Source: Tomocerus qinae (taxonomy: Eukaryota > Arthropoda > Collembola > Entomobryomorpha > Tomoceridae). From it: 64,000 nt of DNA. A program made the translations under genes and the position numbers. The DNA is taken from positions 10,634,513-10,698,512 of the forward strand of contig CM034547.1 in the NCBI GenBank assembly GCA_020055645.1. The letters are read 5' to 3'. Below are positions 8,399 to 64,000 of this stretch, one piece after another; within the stretch, counting starts at the first letter, position 1; every line of letters starts with the position of its first letter. The notes under the pieces are model-generated. The model worked only from the letters and a program-made list of their open reading frames with translations. It was not told where the DNA came from and ran no database searches.

Positions 8399-11300
8399 AT
8401 GAGCTTGCATAATCTCCTGGAACTGGATGATTTCGACAAGCGACATCAGAATCAGGAAATCCCAGAAAGAGATACAACAGGTAGAAATATTCCTTTAAAA
8501 TACACATTTATGTATGTAGGTATATTCATCATTACAGCAATTTCAAGTCATCTATATCCTTAATGTTATATGATTTACGTAGATTCTGATCGGCCAAAAC
8601 CAAGGCCAAGACGAAAAGGAAATGCCTCAAAAAATGAGAAAAAGATCTTCGCCAATAGTCCAAAGAATTACACACGAAAAGGGACAGAAAGAGATATAGA
8701 CGAAGTCCTGTCGTTTTCTTCGGAAAACAATGATCCATTCGCAATAGACAACTCTGCATTCATTCACGATGAAGAAGAGCAAAAGACACCGATTAAAAAC
8801 AAGCAATTTCTTGGAGGAGATCATGCAAAGTCCCAGAGGAGGGGTAAAATGTTTCGAAAGCAATATTTCTCATCAGACTCAGAAGCAGAGGTAGCAGGCG
8901 CAGGCGGAGGGAAAACGGAAGTGTTGGTTGCTGATGTACATTACCAAGAAACTGAAACTATAAACAAAAAGCGAAGATCTACTCATCGAGATGATGTCTC
9001 TTCCACTGCTTGGGTGACGATTTGTTTGTCAATTCGCCTTAATCTACTCTTAACAAAAAAAATCATAATTTTTGAATTTTAATGCTTAGGATAATGAAGA
9101 AGACGAAACAATGGTCCGAATAGAGAATGAATTAAAATCGAAATCTAAGAAACCTGTTCCAAAACCAAGGCCTAGAAGTAGAACTACTGTAAGCTCTCAC
9201 AGTTCTATAGATTCCGTACATAGCAGTGCTAAAAATTCAGTCGTAAATCGAGACCTGTCTCAAAATGGCACAAGTGACAAAGAAGATTATTTAGCAATCA
9301 CTATTCCACCAGAAAAGGATACACAAGATGAACTAAAAAACGAAATATCCACCGAAAGTCGTAGTAATATCAAAGAAAAATTGATGGAGAGATGGAGGAA
9401 AACAACTCAAAACTTTTTGAAGCCATCGTCATCTTCTGGGGTCCAGTCACAACTTCATTCCGGTGAGGTATCTGAGGAACCCATATCTGAAAGATTAAAA
9501 CCAAAATTTCTCCGCAGTAAATTCAAAGAAGTAAAGAAAGATATAGAAACTGGGGATGACAATAGCTCAGAATTAAAAATATTAAGTAAACCTAAACGTA
9601 AGGGAGATGTGACTTCAGAAACTTTTTTCGAAGAAGAAACAGAGCCAGTAAAATTGCCCAAATCCCCTGAAAAAGGAAGGCTTCTTCGAAAAGAAAAGAA
9701 GAAAACGGAGACAGCTTCAGTTAATGAAGAGGATGATGATGATAAAGTAGAAGCAACACCTAAAAGAGAATCAGAAAAGAAAAAGAAACCGAAGGACAGG
9801 ATTTTTTCGGAAGAAGAGCAGAAAATGCTCTTAGGGATAACAATACACAGCTCCGATTTGCTTCCTTTGAATCCAAATGTTTTACATCCTGTAGTAAAAG
9901 TAACAATTATGGATGAAAACGGAAAATTTATAGTGAAAAATGAATATATCAAGCGAGGATTACAAAAAGCACTTGCTAAACACAAACACAAAGGTAAAAG
10001 TAAACATCGCCGGAAAAAGAAAGATTCTGAAGACGATGACGCTGATGATAGTCATGAAGAAGACAGCGCAGCTGACAAAAAGAATGAGAATGTAACATCA
10101 AAGTTAAGTACAGAATCAATTCTTCCAATTATGACTCAGGCTTGTCAAGTAAATCAACGGATGCCCACATTTGCTCCAACTTGGAATGAACTATTGCTCT
10201 TTGAAGAACCATTTTGCAGATTTTTGCAAAGTCGATTGAAAGTGATATTTTTCTTTGAAATAATGGATTTTCTTCCAGTAGAAGGACCTTACCCTGTGCC
10301 CTCCTTCAAGTACCACGGTATCCCAATCTTTTCTATTTCGTCTTTATGAGTTAAATAAGTGTTATCATTTTATCATTTTCCATCGGTTCTTACCATTTAT
10401 AGGTTCTGAAGCTGGATGGTATAAAGTAGCATGGGCTTTCTTGAAACCAGTTGGGGCTAACGGGACAGAAAACATCGATAGAAAGTTGAGACTTCAGTTG
10501 TATCAACCCGAAGAATTACGCACTAAAGATTTAGTCCATGGACCAGAGGTAAACAGCACGTAAACAATAAATTCTGCTAGCAGGAAGTAATTATGTATTG
10601 AATGTTATTTCTGCAGGTGTTTTGTTGGTGGAAATTAAATAAGAGGCAAAAATTGAATGCTACTTTGTACGTGACAGTAAAGGGTATTCGACCTCCTCAA
10701 GCTACAGCCGCCAGTCTGAGAACGCTACTTTCTATGAGACAAGAGCATTTAACACAAGCCATTTTAGAAAGTCAAATGGCAGCTACAAAAAAGTCAAAGA
10801 AAAGAAGAAAAAAGGCAAGTAGGGTTGATCAATTGTTGAATGAAATGTTTTGCAAATTCTATAGAGGTCCTTTTCGAGTAGAGTTTTTGACTATTTTTTG
10901 TGTGAACAATTATTATTATAGGCCAGTAGAAGCATGGGTACAACAGATGTAAGGAAATACCCTCAATGGACTCGTTTGGAAGGACAAAGTTGTAAAGTTC
11001 CTAATCGAGTTGCAGCGTCTCTACCGTCGTCTCAGGTGGCTACGTTAAATCTAACGGTCTCAGGAAACGCTTATTGTGTTAGTTTCAGCCCTTGCGGTTT
11101 GAAATTAGCTGCAGGATTAGACACCGAAGAGCTTCACGTTATTCTTATTTTTGAGGTATACTGAGTGACAAATATTTTATGGGCTACCATTCGTTTTACA
11201 ATGATTTAATATGCCTGATTTATTATGATGAATAATAATTTCTCAGGTTCCATCAGGAAATTTATTGCGAAGTCTGAAAGGGCACCATGGTCTCATTTAT

Positions 11301-13277
11301 GACCTCACCTGGAAAATATTAGAAGTTGGTGACAATTCAACTGAACATTATCTGGCATCAGCTTCTGCTGATTCTACTGCAATCATTTGGGAAATGGAAA
11401 GTGGAGATGATAGCACCTTAAAAGAAGTCAAGGTACTAGTACTAACTAGTAAATCTAATTAACGAATTTCATAATCTAGGTAGATAGATTGGATTTAGGA
11501 ATAAAAAACCTGTCCAAAGGACGGTCTAATCACTAGTTTTATAAATTCTCTTACAAAATGCTTTTTTTCTTTAGAAATTGTTGCATCCATCGTTCGTTTA
11601 TTGTGTAAAGTTTCATCCTTCACATCCATCTTTGGTAGCAACAGGATGTTTTGATTATATCATCAGAGTATGGGACATTCGAAAGCAAAGTGAAAGTAAA
11701 AGAAAAGGTTCACCCAATCACGACAGTGTACCCATTTTTCTGGTAAATAAAAATGTGTGTTCGGAAAATAAAGTTTTGCCTGTCTCTATTTTCCGCTTCT
11801 AATCACGTGTCAAATTGTTAACAGTTAGATCGTCACAGCAGTTTCGTCAATTGCCTTGTATTCAATAACCAAGGGCTGCAACTTTTTAGTGGTGATGGAG
11901 AAAGCTGTGTGTATAAATGGAGTCTAAAATCCCCTAGTCGTCGAAAGTCGTGGAAAATTGACAAGTATGTCTCTCCCGTTTGTAATACGGTCCTTTAATG
12001 TATTTCATAATTTGTTTTACTAATTGCAGAGATATAAAACTAAGTGACACTGGTAAACGCGCAGTAAACAGTTTAAGTCTTCATCCGGGAGGAAATCGAC
12101 TTTTAGTCCACATTAGAGACAGCTGTATAAAAATCTTGGATGTGGAAACATTAGTAATTTTGCAGTCTTTCAGTGGATTATCAAATGATAGGTATTTATT
12201 TTTTGTCTTCATATTTCATCACTCGCTCTACTATTGTTTCATTTACATCTCATGTTACATTTTCGTAGATTACAGGTCAAAAGTTGTTTCAGCCCATGCG
12301 GAAATCTCGTTTTAAGTGGGAGTGAAGATTCGACGTTATGCATTTGGGACTCAGACACAGGAGCCATTTTACAATTCATAACTCCAGAAAACCATCCCAA
12401 TTGTGTTGTCACAAGTGTGGATTATCATCCTTACGATCATTATGTAGCAATCGGTCTTGCCTCTACAATAAGTGAACCGAATCCGATTTTAGTCTATACC
12501 TACGAGCCTACTAAAATTCCTAAGATATCAATGGTAGGTGTAACTACACTGAAATCGAATCTAAGGAGGCAACGAAGCAAAAGTAAAATTCAGAGTCCAG
12601 TGCGAAGTAAACCGAGCATGAAGAAAACTGTTTCATTTGCAAGTCAAGCCCGTTCTTTGTTAGCGCACAGAGGTGACAGTTCGGAGAAATTTTTAACCAT
12701 AATCAAAAAATTAGACTCGGCACTCATAAAGGGCGGTGCAGGTCCAGCTCATAGTCAACTTCTAAATCAGACTATTGATATTCCACCACCTGGTACGGAA
12801 ACACAAGTGGAAACAGAAGAAAATGCAAATATACCAGAAATTCCTGTCAAGCCTGATTTCTCTAGTCATGCGGCTTTAGTCGAAGAACGCCTCAAGAAGT
12901 TGATTTCACAAGATGACGAAGTTGAAAAGCCTTACGAAGAAGATGAAAATCAACATGGTGATGTCGAAGCACCGAAGCCAAGAGTACCGCGTCCGAAAAC
13001 TTCGAAAATTCCTATCAGACTCAAAAGAAATAAAGATAACGTAGATAATGAAAAACCAAACACATACACTTTAAATTCTCCAGAAAGAAATACATTCAGC
13101 GTGAACTCTCCAGAGAGGCACACGTTTTGTGTTAATTCTCCGGCTAAAAATACCTATAATGTCAACTCTCCAGCAAACACTTACACCTTAAACTCACCTG
13201 CTGGAGAAAGAAATCATACTGAAGGAATTCACTTGGATTCCCATGAAGTGCTGAAGGTTAATGATGGTAAGGAATAA
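8399..13277 (+). CDS. AHI1: Jouberin (AHI1), ciliary transition-zone WD40 protein
   Basis: Eleven exons (8399-8480, 8583-9013, 9090-10317, 10403-10548, 10617-10814, 10922-11155, 11247-11432, 11575-11742, 11825-11964, 12030-12191, 12269-13277) join in phase to 1327 residues. A charged, low-complexity N-terminal third is followed by the AHI1-specific block: [54 protein letters not shown] and [15 protein letters not shown]. At least six WD repeats follow ([43 protein letters not shown]). Human AHI1 acts at the ciliary transition zone and is mutated in Joubert syndrome. Oddities: the exon ending at 10814 appears to use a GC donor (AAG|GCAAGT). The C-terminus has five imperfect repeats around NSPERN, and no SH3 domain, unlike vertebrate AHI1. 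An arthropod with sensory cilia or flagellated sperm would have use for it. Confidence 0.9.
13061..13213 (+). repeat. Coding tandem repeat in the AHI1 C-terminus
   Basis: Five consecutive units of about 11 residues, each with T(Y/F) then L/V-NSP(E/A). Each SP pair is a candidate proline-directed phosphosite. Confidence 0.7.
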
Positions 13278-58251: not shown

Positions 58252-59265
58252 CTTTCTATGGCATAATTTGTTAAGAATTTTTTTAAAAACTATTTTAAGT
58301 GTGAGAAAAATATGGCATTATATTATAAATACAATAAGTTAAAAGACTGCAATTCCATTTTGAAATTGTCATTTATACACCCAGGAAAGTTCTGCCCAAA
58401 AGACGGACGCTGACGCAAAGAAAGGAGATTAGGAAGAAAAATTAAACGTTTATTTCATTTCACAATTCATAGTCAGGGCATTATAGTCTACCTCCGTGAA
58501 CGAAAATCAAACTTAGGTTTTTACCTGTACATTAATATTATTATTTCAATGCCCCTTCCATAAGTGTGCCAGAATTCCTGAACCCAGGTTGGGTTACTCA
58601 ACTACCACAACTTATCTTAACCGACTTTCACCATAAAAACTTTCACTGATCATGCTTCCCATATGATACATTATTATTATTATTTTATTAAGAAAATAAT
58701 TACATTGAACTACAGAAGCGCATTGAATACCTGGGCTGCCTTTCTGGCTCAGCTTTAAAACTAAACAGTGCGCAGTAGTGGAGCCTTATGTTTCAATGGT
58801 AGGAGAGTAGGGAGGACACGGAATTGATAATAGAGATGTCTAAATATATGAGTAACTATATTTATTATGTGATAATAGTATTACCTAATGCTACATGCAT
58901 AACAGGATTATGATTTTTTGTGCTTAAAATTCGTAAACTGCAAACATTTATTGAACAACAATTTACATATAATTAGGCCATTTTCCTAGTAAGTGTTCTA
59001 TTTTTTATGCAGGCAAATGCAGAATAAAGTAATGACATTATTTGATAATAGTTTCGAATTGACAGAAAGTATTCCTAAAAAATACAGAGAAAGAGTCTGG
59101 GCCTTAATCCTCATTAAAACAAATGCACTTAATAAATTAATAATACTAAGAGAAAAGTAACGAATGCTTTGCCTATACAGCGTATAGCAACTATAGCCAT
59201 ATATACAGCGCAGCAGTGCGTAAGGCCTAAAGTACTCAGGGTCAGTGCACACATGCATGATAATA
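58252..59265. other. 3' flank of the channel gene
   Basis: No exon seen; presumably includes the 3' UTR of the minus-strand channel. Confidence 0.4.
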
Positions 59266-62200
59266 TTATCGCATAACACTGTTTGATGACAAGCCAAATG
59301 AGGACATTGACTGTATCTGATCACCAGTTAAATTGATATCTTGAAGACTTGGAGAATTTTTAAGAAATCTATTAATCTGGCCTGGGCCTTTTTCTCCTTC
59401 TTCTGATGGTCCAGCAGGTCCAGGAGAGTTGGAAACCAATGAACCTCTGATATTTTGAAAACGGCGTTTCTCCTCCTCAACTCGAGCCTGTCTTTGTAAG
59501 ATTATGTTTTGAGCAAGAGTCTGTAATTCTTCTTTCAGCATTGGATATTTTTGTAGAACCTCGAATAGATCCTCTCGAGATATAACCCCTATTTCCGTTT
59601 CCAGACGAGCAGTATATGAATAGGCGTACTTAGCATCCGGTAGAAACATTTTAACCTTAAAAAGTTACTTGTATTATACAATGAAAAAATCACAAATGAA
59701 TATAATATAACAAAGAGAAACTGACAATAATTAAATTATTGCTGAAAACGGAAATAGTGATTATTTATAGGGAAAACAATGACACTTACTTCACCAAAAC
59801 AATTTCCTTCGACCAGCTTTGTAACACAAATGTCTGTGTTTTTGTCTTCGTCCAATACTACTACTTCACCTTTGGTAACAATGTACATTGTATTCACCAC
59901 ATTTCCAACACGCATTATACGTGCTCCTGCCATGTACATTTCATGACGAACTTTTACGCAAATTTGTCGAATAACTTCGTCATCCAATTTCCTAAGAATC
60001 CGAGACTAAAACATTTAAAGAATTTGTCTCTTTTTAATTTACTGCCACAAATAATAGGAATGCTGCTGTTATAGTACGTACTTTACATCGAAAATTGTGT
60101 TATACCTTTTTAATCGGTGGTCCATATATTTCAAAGTAAATATCGGCTCGTAGAGGGTAGGGTAATTCTTGCATAATGGTGTGGTACTGCATAGATTTAG
60201 ATGTAGACCACAACTGCTTAAAGTAGTGCACAACCTCGTTAATTTTTTCAGCCTTCAATCCCAGGGTATTTAAATGACTCTATTTTTTGGAATCAAAAGT
60301 AATCCATTTTACACCAAGCTAATAGGTTATAGCTACTTAGTTATGCAACTTTGTTTTAAAACTTCTCAAATTGTAATAAAGACGGAAGATGTAATTCAAA
60401 CCTCTAAAAATGACAGTTTATACTGAAAGTGTATTTTGCTGGATACTTGAGAAGACAGACATTGAGTCATTTCTCCCAGAAGTTGTCCAACTATTAGCAC
60501 AGTGGCAAATATGATCATAATGGTCATTATAAGTTCCATAGTGAGTCTTGCTGTCATATCGCTTAGTCCAGAGTATGTAATGGTATTCGCCACATAATTC
60601 AAGGCTAGGAGATAGCGATTTCCTATTTTCACTTCATCATTGTCCACCAATGCTGAAAATTATAGATTCGTAAAATAATACCTTATGAGAAGATAATTAA
60701 ATATTGTGTTAAAGATAGACATTTATTTGAATAAAAAAGCGAAAACATACCTTGGGCGTCTTTGACATCTTTAGTAAGCACTGATACCCAAGACCGTGGG
60801 TTGCAATCATCTCCGTAACATGAAACAAGGTACCAGGAGCAAGCAGCAAAGTGGAAGACAAAGCAAAGAAGAACGGTAACTTTGAAAATTTTTACATTCG
60901 AAGCTTTCATTCTTAAATCGGTTGCTGATTCATTCAGGTAGCGTACAAATAAAATCTACAGTGTAATCAATGATACACTATTTCAATAATGAACTATGAC
61001 AATTAAAATCTGATGTAGGGCATTTTCATTTTTACCCAAAATTCCTGTAGTATTAGTTAGTAGTTATTGTATTAATTAATAATTTATTGTTATTATTAAC
61101 TACAGTAATTTTGATTTTTACCATTCGTAACAACTGTAAGCATCTAATATTAGAAGCTTGCCTTTCGGTACTAGCCAACATGTAAAATGGCAAAGTTGAT
61201 ATTAGATCGATAAAGAATCCGTCAAATTGACTAATATATCTATAATTAAAAGAAGGATTTAAGTTTGAACAGTTTAGAGTGAAGGGTCAATTATATAGTA
61301 ATTTTAGGATACACTCGGCGATATAAGTACAAAGATTAGAACAATAAGAGTTAGTTAATATATAAACCACAAACTTTATTGATGTTTGTTTGATTGTTTG
61401 CATAAGAACTCCTTTACTATTGTAGTATCCCAAATGGAAATTTCCAATCATCCGAAGACAAAAGAATATCTCCAGAATAATCCTAATAGAGAGGGTGATA
61501 GTGGTCGCACCACCGATACTTCCTTCCGTTTCTTTTCCCACACCGAATGCAATTTCATAAGCAGTTAATCCACAGGAAATAGCCGTTAAGCACAAGTATA
61601 GGCTCACACAATTACAACACACATTCGATGAAGGATGAACAACGAATGTAATTGGATTTAATTTTTTCTTGCTATACAAGCAACACACCCATTAGCAATT
61701 TTTTTAGAACGGTTTTAAAATCCAAGTAATCGAATATTTTATTAAAATAAAGTCTTGGTATATGGAAAGCTGAAAGCTTACTCTTGAATTATGTGGATAA
61801 ATCCCATTTCATCTCTAGGAATTTTTTTCCCGAAAGTTAACAGCCAACTGTACCAGTGATTGTTTGCATTTACTTGATTTGCAACATTATCAGCGGCATT
61901 ATCAACATCTTCCTTCTTAACTGGAATAACCCTTATCGGGTCTTCTATAATGACCATCTTTTCCTCTGTGTCATTTTCTTTTTCTTTGGGTACATGTTCT
62001 TCCAAACAAGCTAAGTCTACTTCAGCATTTACAAATCTGCTTCCTTTCTCGTTGGATGCTGGAATGGTATTTTTCCTTTCAACTAAGGAGGTCTTGGGTT
62101 GAAAGCTACTTTGCTGAATAGCTTCATTGTTAAGAGAGAATCCAAAATTTTCTAAGTCTTCTTGTTTACTATCTTCCCATTCTGCTTCTTCAGCAGTTGT

Positions 62201-64000
62201 TTCTAAAATTGTTTGCTTAAAAATAAATTACAAAAAAATGTTTAAATAATAATCGCAAACTATGAAAAATTCTAGAAATATGAAACAATAGAGATATTTA
62301 ATAGAAATTAATAATTTACTCTATAATGAATTAAGCACGCCTTTTCCAAAGCGAGATGTATTTCGGGATATACACGCAAAAATGCAACAAATTCATCCCT
62401 GCCAAACACAAACAATTCTACGCCAGTTGCCGTTACAGCTGTATAAAGACGTTGAACATCATACAACACGGAGATTTCCCCAATCAAACTGCAAATGCAA
62501 AAAATATGCCACAATATAGGTTTACCTGTTACAACAGTCTTTCCATTTTAATAATTCAGACAAACTTATAGAATTGGTACTACGTGATCGCATTAAGTGT
62601 GTACCTTCCTGTCCCCATGTAACCAATTATTTTTCCTTGAGCGGTATAACCCACAACTACTCCAGAGCATATTAAGAAAACGTCATCATTCAAATCTCCA
62701 TATTTCATGATAAATTCTCCTTCAGGGTAATATACCTCTTTCAGTGATAAACTGAGCATTCGGATACCAGGCTCATCCAAGTTTGCAAAAACAGGAGACT
62801 ATGATTTAAAAATATTATCGACATATTGTGTTAAGAGTGCACGTTATGAAGTTTCCGTGTTAACTGTGTGAATTTTTGCGTTAACTGTAAAACTTTACCT
62901 TTCGGAGAAAAGGTTCGTATAATTCTTTCATGACATCTGTTTTAAGTGTAGGGTGCAAGGCTGCAAAAAGGTCTTCGACTAATATTCCTTTAGTTTTGTC
63001 CCACGCGCTGAAGTAATGCTCTCTTACGCGACTGTAAAGATGAGTAAGTAACGGGGTACTTCAGTAAGTTTCTTCGAGTTATATAATACGCTTAAAAGAT
63101 CGGCTAAGGTTACCTTCGACAAGATCTAGATGTTCGATATTGCTCTAGAAAACTGAAGATAATTTGTGCCTTTTCTCGTATCTCAAGTTTACGAGGATCT
63201 TCTCCTGCCATACATGCAGTAAGTTTTGAAGCTAGGAATCCAGTGGTTATCAGCCCTGTAAAATTGTTTCAAAATATGCCTTCACAATGATATTATGTTA
63301 TATACATATTTATTGATTTAGGTATATAATTTAATATTTAAATGGATTAATGGAGTAGGTTAGGAAAGCAGTAGAGATTCTCTACTAGGGAATAAGAAAA
63401 GTGACACAAAATCTCACCTAATATTATCACCAAGATTGCAATTTTCCTATTAAAATCGTCCAACAGATCCAAATCTCCATATCCAACGGCCAGTATCGAG
63501 TTTGTTACCCAATATACACCAACAATAAAATACTCAGCAGGATAGTTGATAACTAAAAATGAAAGCCCAAAAATTGTAGGACCGGAAGTTTAGGAATAGC
63601 TTAATAGAAGTTTCATTGGTTCTTAAAATAAAACATCATACATTTCTTCAATTCTTGGTATTTATAGAGATTTCCGTGAGTTAGCCACGCGTTATCACTA
63701 CACACCATAGTTTTTCCATCCACCGGAGGATTGCAAACCAAATAAGCAGCCAAACAAGCCGCTCCAATTATAAATATGATTAACATTGGGATAACTTCAA
63801 CAAGACTAAAAAAATTTCACTATTACAAATAATTACCAACATATGAACATTTCTGTAGATTGAAACATAAATATTGCTTACATCAAAAAGGACAAGCTTC
63901 TGAAGATAGCTTTTTCCAGCACCCTCCCAGCAACAACCATGCGATAAACTTGTAAGACTCTGTTCAATCTTAAATAAGCCACGAGATAATATTTTCCCTG
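59266..64000 (-). CDS. Tandem-unit CNG/HCN/CNGK-like channel, 3' part (5' end outside window)
   Basis: About fifteen exons join in phase. Unit A: S4 (YLRLNRVLQVYR, about 63950), S5 (VEVIPMLIIFIIGAACLAAYL), pore ILAVGYGDLD (about 63490), S6, C-linker and a CNBD (62780-62340: EGEFIMKYGD, GEISVLYD). An acidic linker (62211-61785) follows. Unit B: S1 near 61620, S2, S3 (FFIDLISTLPFYM), S4, S5 (VTVLLCFVFHFAACSWYL), pore TITYSGLSDM (about 60590), S6, C-linker and CNBD (VGNVVNTMYIVTKGEVVVLD, FGEV), then a coiled tail ending SSNSVMR. Unit A has the potassium-type filter VGYGD; unit B has YSGLSD instead. In both CNBDs the phosphate-binding Arg before Thr-Ala is Tyr (YTA). Covalently linked units recall CNGK of sea urchin sperm, which has four. 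More units may lie upstream. Role: membrane excitability, details unknown. Confidence 0.85.

Follow-up and report, generated by a model that had tools for sequence, protein, structure and literature searches.

CNGK channels are described as occurring primarily in marine invertebrates, and in sea-urchin sperm CNGK acts first, followed by an exchanger and then by CatSper (both from the accessible text of PMC4749565). According to the same text, one cGMP at the third CNBD gates the sea-urchin channel ApCNGK, whereas in zebrafish the gating signal of CNGK is pH. In the accessible text of PMC4749565, PMC7576140, PMC6259924, PMC2572835, PMC8835908 and PMC6660944 we found no report of an arthropod CNGK. 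Here we describe a gene of the springtail Tomocerus qinae whose predicted product resembles these channels in layout and departs from them in one of its selectivity filters.

The window is a stretch of 64,000 nucleotides (assembly GCA_020055645.1, contig CM034547.1, positions 10,634,513 to 10,698,512), and coordinates called window-like carry its numbering on past 64000 along the same contig. The window gene was built exon by exon from the contig sequence, including the part past 64000, and the resulting predicted splice pattern runs on the minus strand from window-like 71721 to 59266 and has 32 exons, with GT-AG at all 31 introns (70-802 bp, median 108). The exons form a single open frame of 2,419 residues with no stop or frameshift, and AATAAA is present at 58952 and 58866, past the stop codon. 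The predicted protein carries four channel and CNBD repeats (R1-R4), giving one chain with four 6TM + CNBD repeats as in CNGK, rather than the one unit of HCN and CNG or the two repeats of tandem CNBD channels. The Pfam model cNMP_binding lies above its cut-off in every repeat and a transmembrane model in three of them (Ion_trans in R2 and R4, Ion_trans_2 in R3); no transmembrane Pfam model passes the cut-off in R1, where the alignment to the best PDB chain runs from the pore onward and S1-S4 are not significant. The best E-values against solved CNBD channels in the PDB (1.2e-32, 2.4e-25, 6.1e-28 and 1e-29 for R1 to R4), together with the four cNMP_binding matches, indicate that the channel identity of the repeats is not due to chance. 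All four repeats have a phase-0 intron at the C-linker/CNBD junction, and repeats 1-3 have another where the CNBD ends; these equivalent positions point to repeat duplication inside one gene.

Table 1. Positions of the window gene, its parts and the related tandem-repeat loci (window or window-like numbering for the gene, contig numbering for the other loci).
Feature	Position	Strand	Basis
Exons 25-32: R3-R4 linker, repeat 4 (S1-S6, C-linker, CNBD), C-terminus and stop	59266..62215	-	gene model, Pfam Ion_trans and cNMP_binding, PDB matches
Exons 18-24: most of repeat 3, S2 to CNBD3 end	62320..64000	-	gene model, Pfam Ion_trans_2 and cNMP_binding, PDB matches
Exon 18, cut by the window end	64184-63882	-	gene model
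Repeats 1, 2 and start of repeat 3, beyond the window	window-like 64631-71721, G000:C2, loci L009-L010	-	gene model
Exon 25, linker between repeats 3 and 4	61782..62215	-	gene model; uninterrupted counterpart in paralogue B5
Repeat 3 selectivity filter AVGYGD	63473..63490	-	read from sequence
Repeat 4 altered filter TYSGLSD	60558..60578	-	sequence; aligned on GYGD of SthK
Repeat 3 CNBD, split by intron 23	62374..62735	-	Pfam match
Repeat 3 phosphate-binding cassette GEISVLYDVQR, Arg at 62449-62451	62449..62481	-	read from sequence
Repeat 4 CNBD, split by intron 31; binding Arg not kept	59545..59936	-	Pfam match, PDB alignment
B1, tandem repeats	C2:28.574-28.585 Mb		open frames/exon pieces
B5, tandem repeats	C2:42.157-42.167 Mb (joined loci L019+L020)		open frames/exon pieces
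B6, tandem repeats	C5:4.258-4.267 Mb, L021 (C5:4257501-4267500)		open frames/exon pieces
B7, tandem repeats	C4:30.667-30.676 Mb, L022 (C4:30667001-30677000)		open frames/exon pieces

The preliminary description had recognised at least two CNBD-channel units, both with their filters and joined by an in-phase linker, and these are found again in the sequence and in the gene model, where its unit A corresponds to repeat 3, and its unit B to repeat 4, of a four-repeat gene. It had allowed for units missing past 64000, and extension along the contig added two repeats, four in all, a layout that also bears out its pointer to CNGK. The linker exon is in phase on both sides as it had proposed (entry in phase 0, HYR/QTIL, and exit in phase 2, IQ/DKKK, the slash marking the splice junction), with bounds now at 62215-61782 instead of 62211-61785.

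Other elements were seen around the gene and elsewhere in the genome. An LTR retrotransposon with the same short frame at both ends lies upstream of the window gene (window-like ~79300-85200, L010-L011), and we take it to be of the BEL/Pao type. Open frames on the plus strand at window 9090-13274 resemble a Jouberin/AHI1-type ciliary protein. At C1:120.03 Mb (L028, 1450-2487, plus strand) an unbroken frame resembles microbial-type 2-oxoglutarate oxygenases (E 6.6e-146 and 3.8e-134) and, judged by this resemblance, is a possible case of horizontal transfer; the best DIOX_N protein is far closer to other 2-oxoglutarate enzymes than to isopenicillin synthase, whose genes are a springtail marker, and so speaks neither for nor against a springtail host. 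That the host is an arthropod is indicated by 114 Chitin_bind_4 matches and by (TTAGG)n arrays (184 + 216 matches, control 0). An insect host, suggested by a single PF02949 odorant-receptor match, was rejected because a gustatory-type 7tm_7 match overlaps it and because PF01395 (odorant-binding protein) had no match; the controls had none either, and this zero does not prove absence.

Tandem CNBD-channel repeats occur at four other loci of the genome searched (334 Mb, 115 contigs), named B1, B5, B6 and B7, which makes five with the window gene. These paralogues were read as open frames and exon pieces, and repeat 1 of B6 and B7 overruns the fetched stretches. B6 and B7 are related copies on different large contigs, their longest shared piece (4.1 kb) being 75% identical in DNA sequence. 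The repeats of the window gene are about 20-27% identical to the paralogues. With a cut-off of E 0.01, none of three stretches at C4:24.785-24.855 Mb (L016-L018) matched any of the four repeats, and the CNBD loci L026 and L027 stayed outside the comparison. The genome further encodes single units of HCN and CNG type (L023, L025, L024); the HCN-like L023 (C1:90845701-90848200, plus strand) is one open frame of 650 residues, with the filter LVSYGD and not one of GYGD type.

To this set we applied a tree of 19 rows with no CNGK sequence among them, B7 being omitted because it nearly duplicates B6; the rows of B1, B5, B6, L024 and L025 are hand-joined exon pieces with approximate junctions, repeat 1 of B1 consists of C-linker and CNBD only, and repeat 1 of B6 is without S1-S4. 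Same-numbered repeats of the window gene, B1, B5 and B6 cluster together (R3 100/99, R4 99/97, R1 89/91, R2 87/89), the strong-support mark of the tree tool being passed by R3 and R4 only and the support for R1 and R2 being moderate. Of 12 comparisons made from the paralogue side, 11 gave the window-gene repeat of the same number as the top scorer, B1 repeat 2 alone differing. In BLAST from the window gene to the others, the best hit is same-numbered in just one of four cases (R4), and the best scores are with HCN for R1 and with other repeats of the window gene for R2 and R3. Because the same-numbered repeats group and the paralogue-side scores match, it is likely that the window gene and its paralogues share a common four-repeat ancestor, from which the window gene would have diverged further; its repeats have terminal branches of 1.31-2.05, against 0.43-0.93 in B1, B5 and B6. 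No split between tandem repeats and HCN/CNG appears in the tree (a constraint keeping the single-unit trio together gave p-AU 0.489 and was neither preferred nor rejected), and the 1-3/2-4 repeat order given in the accessible text of PMC7576140 was not recovered in it, the deep order being weak.

The earlier proposal that the units belong to one polypeptide is supported by the 2,419-residue frame and by paralogue B5, where R3 and R4 lie in an unbroken frame. This frame (at 9283-10596 in the joined L019+L020) runs from the CNBD3 end through the linker to S1-S5 of repeat 4, so the R3-R4 join is well supported without splicing, and the junction is similar in both genes (LPFLYFARNRVGRCNFVIHPN in B5, GFIHIIQ/DKKKLNPITFVVHPS in the window gene). 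Repeat 1 of B5 also continues unbroken into S1 of repeat 2. The between-repeat introns of the window gene measure 108 bp (intron 7), 172 bp (intron 16) and 104 bp (intron 24), the last containing the variant ATTAAA and no ATG. With an AATAAA in intron 16, about 30 bases before the intron end, and an ATG opening exon 17, the main structural rival is a split at this intron into two neighbouring two-repeat genes (R1+R2 and R3+R4), whose products would dimerise in the manner of protist tandem channels with two repeats; read-through of exon 16 does lead to an early stop, and CNBD channels with two repeats are known in oomycetes and dinoflagellates (accessible text of PMC7576140). However, intron 16 has good splice sites in phase 0 and at just 172 bp leaves hardly any space for a promoter, exon 16 stops at the same CNBD position as exons 7 and 24, the frames of repeats 2 and 3 are about 20-25 bp apart in B6 and B7, and R1-R2 and R3-R4 are joined by open frames in B5. 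We consider two genes very improbable here and continue with a single four-repeat gene.

The filters of this gene read LLLGYGD in R1, TSTGFGD in R2, LAVGYGD in R3 and TYSGLSD in R4, so that the GYG/GFG filter of CNGK is found in R1-R3 and is replaced by GLS in R4. Since GLSD of R4 aligns on the GYGD of SthK, the change lies in the filter itself, and it affects the second filter Gly, which is Ser, as well as the aromatic place, which is Leu. Two residues before the first filter Gly the four repeats have L, S, A and Y, a place held by Thr in most K+ channels. In the four paralogue loci 15 of 16 filters were found, the exception being that of B1 repeat 1, and all 15 are GYG or GFG (for example GFGN in B5 repeat 2, GFGD in B7 repeat 1 and GYGD in B6 repeat 1). 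A phase-2 intron interrupts the first Gly codon of the R1 filter, and the corresponding codon in repeat 1 of B6 and of B7 is likewise interrupted in phase 2, which supports the joining of exons 3 and 4 in the window gene. The pores are thus unequal, as the preliminary description had stated, but its picture of one normal and one broken filter forming a pair is not supported by a gene model of four units, of which three have GYG/GFG and the fourth GLS; a simple two-filter pairing is disfavoured also by the grouping with four CNGK-like tandem-repeat loci in the same genome. A two-unit channel was rejected after the contig beyond 64000 had brought the repeats to four.

From Leu-Ser in place of Phe/Tyr-Gly, and from the L/S/A/Y inner positions, we expect a lower K+ selectivity or a changed conductance. 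A four-repeat channel with normal K+ conduction would be one in which three GYG/GFG quadrants suffice and the fourth can accommodate GLS, and its appeal is that three of four filters are kept and that some K2P channels have Leu at the aromatic position in one of their pore loops; it is unlikely in our estimate, as Ser has also replaced the second filter Gly of R4, and the inner place varies through all four repeats. The altered R4 filter and altered parts of R1, along with the longer end branches noted above, would also fit a non-conducting or regulatory protein, or a gene in early decay. Decay is unlikely because no stop or frameshift occurs in 2,419 codons, and the splice sites are intact, despite the ~20-27% identity to the paralogues; against a non-conducting role is that a pseudotetramer needs no partner subunit, and taken together we give these readings a low probability, below that of normal K+ conduction.

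For the ligand site, Gly-Glu occurs together with the binding Arg in repeat 3 only, and this is the case in all five genes, the sequence of B5 being read across a junction outside a full gene model. Repeats 1 have Gly-Glu and lack the Arg, although B1 has an Arg one place further on, repeats 2 lack the Glu in the cassette, and repeat 4 of the window gene has Gly-Glu with Lys/Tyr near the Arg site. The sequence hallmark of CNBD3 in ApCNGK is therefore present in the window gene; zebrafish CNGK departs from CNBD3 gating, and because that channel responds to pH the mode of gating is not readable from sequence alone.

Genes of the sperm pathway were matched exon by exon. Two adjacent SLC9C1-like loci (C2:28656684-28666784), ~71 kb from B1, have Na_H_Exchanger and Ion_trans, with a CNBD match at one of them, and a further SLC9C1-like locus with Na_H_Exchanger and Ion_trans is found at C1:109270428-109274430. 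CATSPERB_C has two matches, at C5:1365140-1365892 and C5:1643854-1644606 (each E 6.3e-38, 137.4 bits), which apparently represent CatSper-beta in an arthropod, in two copies. The presence of SLC9C1-like and CatSper-beta genes in the same genome suggests a sperm role.

We favour, as rather probable, the reading that the window gene encodes a fast-diverging CNGK-type pseudotetrameric channel with one pore per chain and an asymmetric filter, gated by CNBD3 and working most likely in sperm. For this gene we infer one mRNA, one pore per chain, CNBD3 gating, permeation and the sperm role. The four repeats of S1-S6, C-linker and CNBD in one chain would surround a single pore, as in CNGK/tetraKCNG; cyclic nucleotide would bind CNBD3 alone, and the C-linkers would carry the movement of CNBD3 to the S6 gate. 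Cations would then pass an asymmetric filter of GYG, GFG, GYG and GLS, with K+ selectivity weaker, or conductance altered, relative to the paralogues, and this current, most likely in sperm, would set the membrane potential upstream of an SLC9C1-type exchanger and CatSper. A bolder version, which we put forward tentatively and hold to be doubtful, is that a four-repeat channel has left K+ selectivity through a change in one filter, and that this asymmetric channel with a single ligand site passes Na+ or Ca2+ in arthropod sperm, its current running counter to that of the four K+-type paralogues within one pathway.

These loci place five tandem-repeat genes in one arthropod, one of them with a repeat-specific filter change, which makes a natural experiment on the effect of one altered filter on a pseudotetrameric pore; CNGK-type, SLC9C1-like and CatSper-beta genes also come together in one arthropod genome. 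We call the window gene a CNGK-type paralogue, which, judging from its layout and CNBD pattern, probably works like a CNGK K+ channel. We do not class it as a CNGK K+ channel, because R4 is outside GYG/GFG and the tree is without CNGK sequences.

Compared with known channels, the window gene is closest in layout to CNGK/tetraKCNG of sea urchin, Ciona and zebrafish, for which four 6TM + CNBD repeats on one chain are likewise described (accessible text of PMC4749565 and PMC8835908). It shares their GYG/GFG in R1-R3 and differs by GLSD in R4. Two-repeat tandem CNBD channels also have tandem units on one chain, but they have two repeats and filters of TVGYG or near variants, in contrast to the four repeats found here, and HCN and CNG have the same fold and CNBD but one unit per chain, with filters (CIGYG in HCN, TIGE in CNG) unlike those of the window gene (HCN and CNG filters from the accessible text of PMC7576140). 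Unlike known CNGK, the window gene has an arthropod host and belongs to five such loci, its chain is longer than the zebrafish CNGK protein (~170 kDa in the accessible description), and its repeats are strongly unlike one another, whereas the domains of CNGK are described as near-identical and without obvious specialisation (accessible text of PMC6259924). With CNGK systems its genome has in common the company of SLC9C1-like and CatSper-beta genes, and in having Gly-Glu and Arg in CNBD3 the window gene is like ApCNGK, whose working CNBD is CNBD3 (accessible text of PMC4749565).
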